Part shown: positions 57,048 to 59,039 of the stretch, in pieces
Position numbering within the stretch: the first letter of the stretch is position 1
Layout: each line of letters begins with the position of its first letter
Assembly: GCA_030756895.1 (NCBI GenBank)
Contig: JAVBIX010000054.1
Coordinates: forward strand, 1 to 64,000
DNA: 64,000 bases
Direction of reading: 5' to 3'
Source: Synechococcus sp. SP2 MAG
GTDB taxonomy: Bacteria > Cyanobacteriota > Cyanobacteriia > PCC-6307 > Cyanobiaceae
Position numbers and translations under genes: made by a program
The notes under the pieces: generated by a model
What the model saw: the letters and a program-made list of their open reading frames with translations, nothing else
What the model was told of the DNA's origin: nothing
The model's database searches: none

Positions 57048-57083
57048 TCCTTTGATTAGATAATCACTTCACGCAAAGTGCAA

Positions 57084-57117
57084 ATAAAGGGCCTCAGGCA
57101 ATACTGGGGCCCTTTAT
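57084..57117 (+). terminator. Rho-independent terminator of psbV
   Basis: ATAAAGGGCC/GGCCCTTTAT 10-bp stem followed by TTTT. Confidence 0.85.
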
Positions 57118-57351
57118 TTTTGCGTAGAAGGCGTATCAGTCCCAGCGATGAAACGTGCCGAGAGACGAAGGCTAAATCCCCTTAAGACGAGAGTCAGCAA
57201 AGACCGAAGAAACAACACAACAAACGTCTATTAACTTAATTTAAATAAGATGATGGCACCTTGCGAAACAAAAAATTTCGAACATGCCTTCTAATATTTT
57301 CAATCAATTCAAGATATATTTTACTGAAATAAATCCGGAGTCTCTTCAACA

Positions 57352-58257
57352 ATGCTCTCCTCTATATCAGTCATCACAAGCTTTGGCGGCGAACGCGAAG
57401 CCAAACCCTCTACGTCATACAAGAGTGCACAGAATAAATCTTCTCAGCTTGCAGCGCTATGCAATAGCGAGTTCAAGCGAAGACAATGCGAGGGAATGAA
57501 AATAGCCATAGGTCCTCGCCTTCATGATCAATGCGAGAGAAAAGTCACTTTCGAGGAATATCCAGATATATCGTCGGAGGCACTAGAGAGGGCCCTAAGC
57601 AGTGCCTATAAGCACGTCTACGGGAATGCACATGTGATGGATAGTGAGAGGTCTACTTCTCTTGAAGCACAATTAAAAGATGGGCGAATTTCAATTCAAG
57701 ATTTCGTACGAGGACTCGCAAAATCTGATTTCTATAAGAAAAATTTTTATGATAAATGTTCTCCAGAAAGAACCATTGAGCTTGATTTTAAACATATTTT
57801 AGGGAGGACACCTCATGATCAAGGCGAGATCACAAAATACATTGAGATCCAAGCATTAAATGGGCATCATGCTGTAATTGATTCAATGGTGGACTCAGCT
57901 GAATATTCAGAAACATTCGGACGATATACAGTTCCTTTCATGCGGTCTTGGCTTTCCCAAGCAGGATCAGCTCAATCAGCATTCAATAGAACGGCTGCGA
58001 TTTGCCTTGGATATGCATATAGCGACAAAGCTATCGGAATCAACTCAAAGCTAAGTCAAGGATTAAAAACAGGCCAAGCAGACAGGATTGTCTTCCCGCA
58101 TGCATCAAAACTGAATTTCTCAGGAGTAAACCTGATCCTGAAAAAGGGAAAGCCCGCATCATGGATCAGGAAATCAGCAACTGTTCTAACAATCGCCGGC
58201 ACAATCGAAGTAACCCGAATCATTCTCACAATTGCATATAGCGCCTTGGCTTCTTGA
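57352..58257 (+). CDS. Phycobilisome linker-domain (pfam00427-type) protein with hydrophobic C-terminal tail
   Basis: SSEALERALSSAYKHVYGNAHVMDSERSTSLEAQLKDGRISIQDFVRGLAKSDFYKKNFYDKCSPERTIELDFKHILGRTPHDQGEITKYIEI...DSAEYSETFGRYTVPFMR; C-terminus SATVLTIAGTIEVTRIILTIAYSALAS. Confidence 0.85.
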   Translation: MLSSISVITSFGGEREAKPSTSYKSAQNKSSQLAALCNSEFKRRQCEGMKIAIGPRLHDQCERKVTFEEYPDISSEALERALSSAYKHVYGNAHVMDSERSTSLEAQLKDGRISIQDFVRGLAKSDFYKKNFYDKCSPERTIELDFKHILGRTPHDQGEITKYIEIQALNGHHAVIDSMVDSAEYSETFGRYTVPFMRSWLSQAGSAQSAFNRTAAICLGYAYSDKAIGINSKLSQGLKTGQADRIVFPHASKLNFSGVNLILKKGKPASWIRKSATVLTIAGTIEVTRIILTIAYSALAS

Positions 58258-58353
58258 CGAAGCCATTCAGACCAACACATCCTGCCCAAAAAATCAGGAT
58301 ACGTTCGTCTCCAGGCAAGAACATCTCTCGACCAAAAAGGGGAGAGGCATGAA

Positions 58354-58391
58354 ATGCTTAGACCTAATAATATATTATTAGGTCTAAGCAT
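58354..58391. repeat. 38-bp perfect palindrome
   Basis: ATGCTTAGACCTAATAATATATTATTAGGTCTAAGCAT is its own reverse complement. Confidence 0.9.
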
Positions 58392-58460
58392 AGTGCTCAG
58401 CTCCGCAAGGTACGCCTATAGGAACTGAGCAGCAATCATGCTGTTCTAAGCTTTAAATTC

Positions 58461-58754
58461 ATGACAAAAGGCTATTGGGTTGTGACTGGCAATATTCACA
58501 CCCCCTTAGGAATGGTTCCTTACATCAACAAATTCATGGCTTGGCTTCCAACAGTCGGAGCACGTTTACTGATACGTGACCTGCAAGGTGATATACGGGA
58601 AGGAAGTCCTGGTTCAGTCAATATTATTGTTGAATTTGATTCAAAAGAGAAAGCGGTCACTGCGTACGAATCAACAGAATACCAAGAATTAATAAACCTC
58701 AGGCTTCAGCATTCAGACCTCAGCCTCACCATAACAGAAGAATTAATCAACTAA
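58461..58754 (+). CDS. DUF1330-like small protein
   Basis: KGYWVVTGNIHTPLGMVPYINKFMAWLPTVGARLLIRDLQGDIREGSPGSVNIIVEFDSKEKAVTAYESTEYQELINLR. Confidence 0.8.
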   Translation: MTKGYWVVTGNIHTPLGMVPYINKFMAWLPTVGARLLIRDLQGDIREGSPGSVNIIVEFDSKEKAVTAYESTEYQELINLRLQHSDLSLTITEELIN

Positions 58755-59039
58755 AATACCAACAGAGAATCATTCTGCAAACAAAGCCTGGCTTCTAGTA
58801 TTTACTTTAAAGCAAATTTTCTTGCAACCACTATGCCTCCAAAAAACTACCTACTTTGCCACAAGTTAGTGCAACTTGACAACATTTTGAATGGTCAATT
58901 CTTCGCCTCTTGAAGAATGTCACCTCTGCCAATGCTAGAAAAAATGAATAGTCCAGGCAGATCACAAACAAGACAAAGTAAAACTGATCTCTCCCAATAA
59001 GATCGATCTGAGGGAGTAAGCCGGCCTATCAGAACACTT

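Follow-up and report, generated by a model that had tools for sequence, protein, structure and literature searches.

The mpeF locus

The window analysed here, which is the whole 64,000-nucleotide stretch of contig JAVBIX010000054.1, contains on its forward strand an open reading frame with an ATG start that codes for a protein of 301 amino acid residues (Table 1). The original prediction had described this protein as a phycobilisome linker with one linker domain and no obvious second one, and the Pfam search agreed, PF00427 being the single domain found, with neither PF01383/CpcD nor any other Pfam domain in the protein. The novelty of the gene itself did not hold: it is MpeF, a name coined by Six et al. 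(2007; PMC2246261) in strains CC9311, BL107 and CC9902 for a putative PE-II linker encoded outside the rod region, in the work that also described MpeG, another putative PE-II linker outside the rod region, from RS9916 and RCC307. The window gene and the MpeF of these three strains share the kinship to PE-II linkers, the position outside the rod cluster and the occurrence in chromatic acclimaters; a hydrophobic CpcGII-type tail is unmentioned for MpeF in the literature that we found.

Full-length orthologues with 86–93% identity to the window protein are present in five further genomes and one with 77% identity in one more, while two further orthologues, here labelled F', are 55–56% identical. 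A shorter relative of 269–280 amino acid residues occurs in seven genomes (57–61% overall identity). The window protein and the proteins of these 15 other genomes (MpeF, F' and the 269–280-residue form) constitute the MpeF-type set (n = 16). A more distant form, with approximately 40% identity and found in three genomes, is MpeG. Genome G021, whose copy is 87% identical to the window MpeF, is taken by us to be CC9311, and likewise G055 to be RCC307 and G020 to be close to RS9916; G011 is WH7803, as matched to a named record.

The gene was said to stand alone after psbV, which is the case: the cytochrome c550 gene lies directly upstream and is followed by a terminator-like hairpin, found by direct reading, with a loop that exceeds the loop limit of our hairpin scan. 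Since psbV ends in this hairpin, mpeF is probably transcribed as a unit of its own; a promoter scan returned no informative site. The position away from rod genes was correct in that the phycobiliprotein structural genes and the other rod linkers are all on other contigs; a phycoerythrin-related CA4-A island, however, is located within the window. mpeF belongs to an AT-rich accessory cassette of about 2 kb, lying between psbV and a small open reading frame adjoining ferredoxin, which is missing from the close relatives G031 and G014 and also from G007 and G011. A DUF1330 gene, part of this cassette in the window, accompanies mpeF in both the MpeF and the F' lineages, with a cupin gene in between in F' (L053:3857-4219). 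The F', 269-residue and MpeG genes have neighbourhoods other than the psbV site, and, as regards carriage by phages, no relative was found in IMG/VR.

Table 1. Features of the mpeF locus and of the CA4-A island, by position in the window.
Feature	Position	Strand	Remarks
mpeZ-type lyase-isomerase, HEAT repeats	36133..37362	-	named by island context
fciB, AraC-type regulator	38031..38987	-	
fciA, AraC-type regulator	38984..40018	-	
unk10, Nif11 domain	40342..40665	+	
AT-rich accessory cassette, mpeF and DUF1330 gene	57050..59030		edges approximate; absent from close relatives
Terminator-like hairpin after psbV	57086..57121	+	8-bp stem, 14-nt loop, T run; read directly
mpeF, PE-II-type linker with CpcGII/CpcL-type tail, 301 residues	57352..58257	+	
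Codons of C46 and C61 (C-x14-C)	57487..57534	+	alignment of MpeF/MpeG and own-genome MpeC, MpeD, MpeE
PF00427 linker domain, residues 74–198	57571..57945	+	Pfam E 7.9e-44
C-terminal helix, residues 270–300	58159..58251	+	homologous to CpcGII tail
Codon of E286	58207..58209	+	within C-terminal helix
Codon of R289	58216..58218	+	within C-terminal helix
DUF1330 gene of the mpeF cassette	58461..58754	+	PF07045 E 3.8e-18

Linker domain and N-terminal cysteine residues

In a phylogenetic tree built from 134 alignment columns of 74 linker domains, MpeF, F' and the 269-residue form made up one clade (support 99/95), which was nested with the PE-II linkers MpeC, MpeD-N and MpeE (98/92), and this phylogeny places the MpeF linker domain among the PE-II linkers. 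The suggestion of the original prediction that phycoerythrin might be concerned was thus supported, whereas the membership of the CpcG/CpcL family, for which it had proposed a phylogeny as a check, was not: grouping the domain in a clade with CpcGII was rejected (p-AU 2.9e-7), which rules out that MpeF is a CpcL by descent. The MpeG domain was placed nearby on a separate branch, and a single clade of MpeG and MpeF-type domains was not rejected (p-AU 0.165). The linker domain was modelled by AF2 with a pLDDT of about 60–84, and the Foldseek matches of the predicted structure were PF00427 linkers, including the CpcL of 8hfq.

We also noticed a pair of cysteine residues, C46 and C61, in the N-terminal segment, which had been overlooked before. 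Both are kept in the alignment of MpeF, F' and MpeG, and they align with the C-x14-C pair of the MpeC, MpeD and MpeE proteins of the same genome, in a region described as phycourobilin-binding in MpeD (Six et al., 2007; PMC2246261). By analogy, we infer that C46/C61 of MpeF may carry phycourobilin. The 269–280-residue relative (L023–L029) is without this N-terminal cysteine segment and has a more hydrophobic tail, and, judging from its sequence, it is probably a linker without a chromophore of its own.

C-terminal tail

The hydrophobic C-terminus had been quoted correctly, as SATVLTIAGTIEVTRIILTIAYSALAS. The MpeF protein ends in GKPASWIRKSATVLTIAGTIEVTRIILTIAYSALAS and the CpcGII of the same genome in AKPPAWLIKSWLVLFAIGGFEISRVILTIGISMVRN. 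A closely similar tail, up to the last residue, is present in the 15 other genomes of the MpeF-type set, and its dN/dS values were 0.04–0.19 (the MpeF lineage at approximately 0.19, the 269-residue lineage at 0.09), so that the tail is a selected coding feature and a chance hydrophobic run is ruled out; the substitution ratios place both the domain and the tail of MpeF under purifying selection.

In local alignments with eight CpcGII tails, the window tail scored above shuffled sequences with Z values of 5.6–12.8, and the tails of MpeF relatives reached Z values of up to 16.8. When all open reading frames of the loci assembled up to that stage were compared, only the C-termini of MpeF-type proteins and CpcGII were clearly above background, and these two results rule out a mere likeness of any two hydrophobic ends. 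An E-x-x-R motif (E286 and R289 in the window protein) is present in 16 of 16 MpeF-type tails and in 29 of the 30 CpcGII tails read (L110–L139), the exception being L138. Shuffles and comparison alike establish, at the level of sequence, that the tail of MpeF is homologous to that of CpcGII. No such tail occurs in the further PE-type linkers that we examined, among them those of relatives with small genomes regarded as Prochlorococcus, which excludes that it is a general habit of phycoerythrin linkers. No homology to the tail of Nostoc CpcL was found (shuffle Z 0.4), and MpeF is therefore linked to the proven CpcL proteins by analogy. The expectation of a CpcL-like protein was supported as to the tail, homologous to that of the CpcGII of the same genome, but not as to the linker domain, which is not of CpcG/CpcL descent. 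What appears to be new, in a gene that is known, is the grafting of a CpcL-type tail on a PE-II linker; no description of the MpeF tail as a CpcGII-type graft was found in the literature searched, of which the coverage was partial, so that an earlier mention is possible.

Predicted interaction of the tail with the membrane

The C-terminal helix was modelled by AF2 as a single helix, residues 270–300, with low confidence (pLDDT about 40–53). Insertion energies were calculated with a scale whose validation was limited to two known helices, and with it the window tail appears only marginally hydrophobic for insertion (predicted dG of about +2.0, KD 1.59). Across the MpeF and F' tails the values were unfavourable, +1.3 to +2.0, and the MpeG tail gave +2.3, while the tails of the 269-residue form gave -0.4 to +0.7, those of CpcGII -1.1 to +0.9 and the CpcL-type tails of other cyanobacteria -0.4 to -2.8. 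For ordinary CpcG, phycoerythrin and own-genome rod linkers, the values were mostly above 3.5, with 2.2 for one truncated ApcE frame. In the window tail, E286 and R289 fall in the middle of the helix, which we counted against membrane insertion, whereas R272 and K273 precede the helix and no positive residues follow it, which fits a linker domain on the cytoplasmic side.

Association with type IV chromatic acclimation

The CA4-A island, located at 36133–40665, 17 kb upstream of mpeF, had also been overlooked in the window. It is composed of an mpeZ-type gene, fciB, fciA and unk10, the same gene content as that published for CA4-A (PMC3877281), which implies a strain of pigment type 3d. All genomes with an intact fciA (13 of 13) carry a gene of the mpeF, 269-residue or mpeG type. 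In the two close relatives without mpeF, fciA either contains a stop that interrupts it (G031:C1:1246566-1247594, L096) or survives only as a fragment in which stops occur (G014:C1:2255910-2256164, L103). Six genomes, three of them near-complete, have an mpeF-type gene without fciA. The contingency table of fciA against mpeF-type genes (12/3/0/6), drawn from 21 near-complete PE-II genomes, gave a Fisher p of 0.0015; the association fails correction for phylogeny and is suggestive only, since it comprises just three independent contrasts. The gene distribution is thereby suggestive of mpeF being an optional module, held mainly by strains with the type IV chromatic-acclimation island. In another genome, four near-identical AraC-type HTH genes were observed within about 42 kb (G018:C1:3114793-3156551).

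Proposed role of MpeF

We propose, as the reading towards which we lean, that MpeF is a chimera of a PE-II linker domain and a CpcGII tail that tethers a PE-II hexamer or rod to the membrane without a core, with photosystem I as the likeliest acceptor. The N-terminal part of MpeF would sit in the PE-II hexamer, with phycourobilin on C46/C61, and the C-terminal helix would cross the thylakoid membrane or embed there. A PE-II hexamer or short rod would thereby be tethered without an allophycocyanin core, as CpcL does for phycocyanin rods, and photosystem I would be the most likely acceptor, again by analogy with CpcL. The spectral overlap for energy passing directly from PE-II to chlorophyll is poor, which counts against this reading. 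The PF00427 domain of CpcL holds the membrane-proximal phycocyanin hexamer, the predicted transmembrane part being unresolved in the 8hfq structure (PMC10322944). The products of MpeF and MpeG were undetected by mass spectrometry in phycobilisome preparations of the tested strains RS9916 and RCC307, and CpcGII was often undetected in such preparations, yet once seen in a phycobilisome fraction of WH8102 (PMC2246261). The missing MpeF and MpeG products speak for the proposed tether, the sighting of CpcGII in WH8102 against it.

This last observation, the marginal insertion energy and the conserved E/R pair in the middle of the helix would also suit a protein-docking helix, through which CpcGII and MpeF attach to one shared site, either on the allophycocyanin core or on a neighbour in the rod, so that a PE-II hexamer brought by MpeF takes the place of the phycocyanin hexamer that would come with CpcGII. 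We consider this unlikely, as CpcG linkers without a membrane role have no hydrophobic end, the tails of CpcGII and of the 269-residue form reach insertion energies of about zero or below, and CpcGII, MpeF and MpeG were often not detected in phycobilisome preparations (PMC2246261). The PE-II-type domain and the chromophore cysteine pair are what an ordinary rod linker would have, and the replacement of another PE-II linker by MpeF was proposed by Six et al. (2007; PMC2246261); such an exchange would occur in hemidiscoidal phycobilisomes under particular light, with the tail merely capping the rod. It seems improbable, because the C-terminus of an ordinary rod linker has to provide either a domain for the next hexamer or a cap, not a CpcGII-homologous tail, and because MpeF was not detected in phycobilisomes. 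That MpeF anchors a PE-II rod in the membrane with photosystem II or no fixed partner is very improbable, given that the CpcL rods of Synechocystis associate with photosystem I (PMC10322944), even though the sequence points to no particular partner and CpcL-type rods of Acaryochloris were reported with both photosystems (PMC9415938).

Returning to the membrane-tethered chimera, a tentative extension, to which we attach a lesser probability, is that MpeF nucleates a core-less, phycocyanin-free, membrane-bound PE-II antenna that would feed photosystem I with blue-green light as part of type IV acclimation, and would thus be for PE-II what the CpcL rods are in type I acclimation.

Comparison with known linkers

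Marine Synechococcus are among the most abundant phototrophs of the ocean. mpeF offers a single gene with which a second, membrane-bound antenna can be tested in them, and in strains whose colour is adjusted to the light its product may couple an antenna for blue-green light to the photosynthetic membrane itself. The CpcL-type tail is also a possible reason for MpeF and MpeG missing from purified phycobilisomes. MpeG shares with MpeF the PE-II-type domain, the cysteine pair and a tail alignable with that of CpcGII, but it is only about 40% identical, has lost the E-x-x-R motif (AHLAGM), bears an additional C-terminal extension and forms a separate branch of the domain tree. CpcL/CpcG2 of Synechocystis and Nostoc is similarly made of one PF00427 domain and a hydrophobic C-terminal helix, in MpeF a predicted one; however, its domain is of the CpcG type, for phycocyanin, and its tail is unrelated in sequence. 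CpcGII, the rod-region CpcG of marine Synechococcus, has a homologous tail with the E-x-x-R motif, but, unlike MpeF, it has a CpcG-type domain, is encoded in the rod cluster and is widespread across pigment types. Among the marine Synechococcus genomes that we read, nearly all have a rod-region CpcGII whose hydrophobic tail is of the CpcL type and keeps the E-x-x-R motif (L110–L137 and L139); CpcGII looks like the CpcL of marine Synechococcus and is worth re-examining as such.
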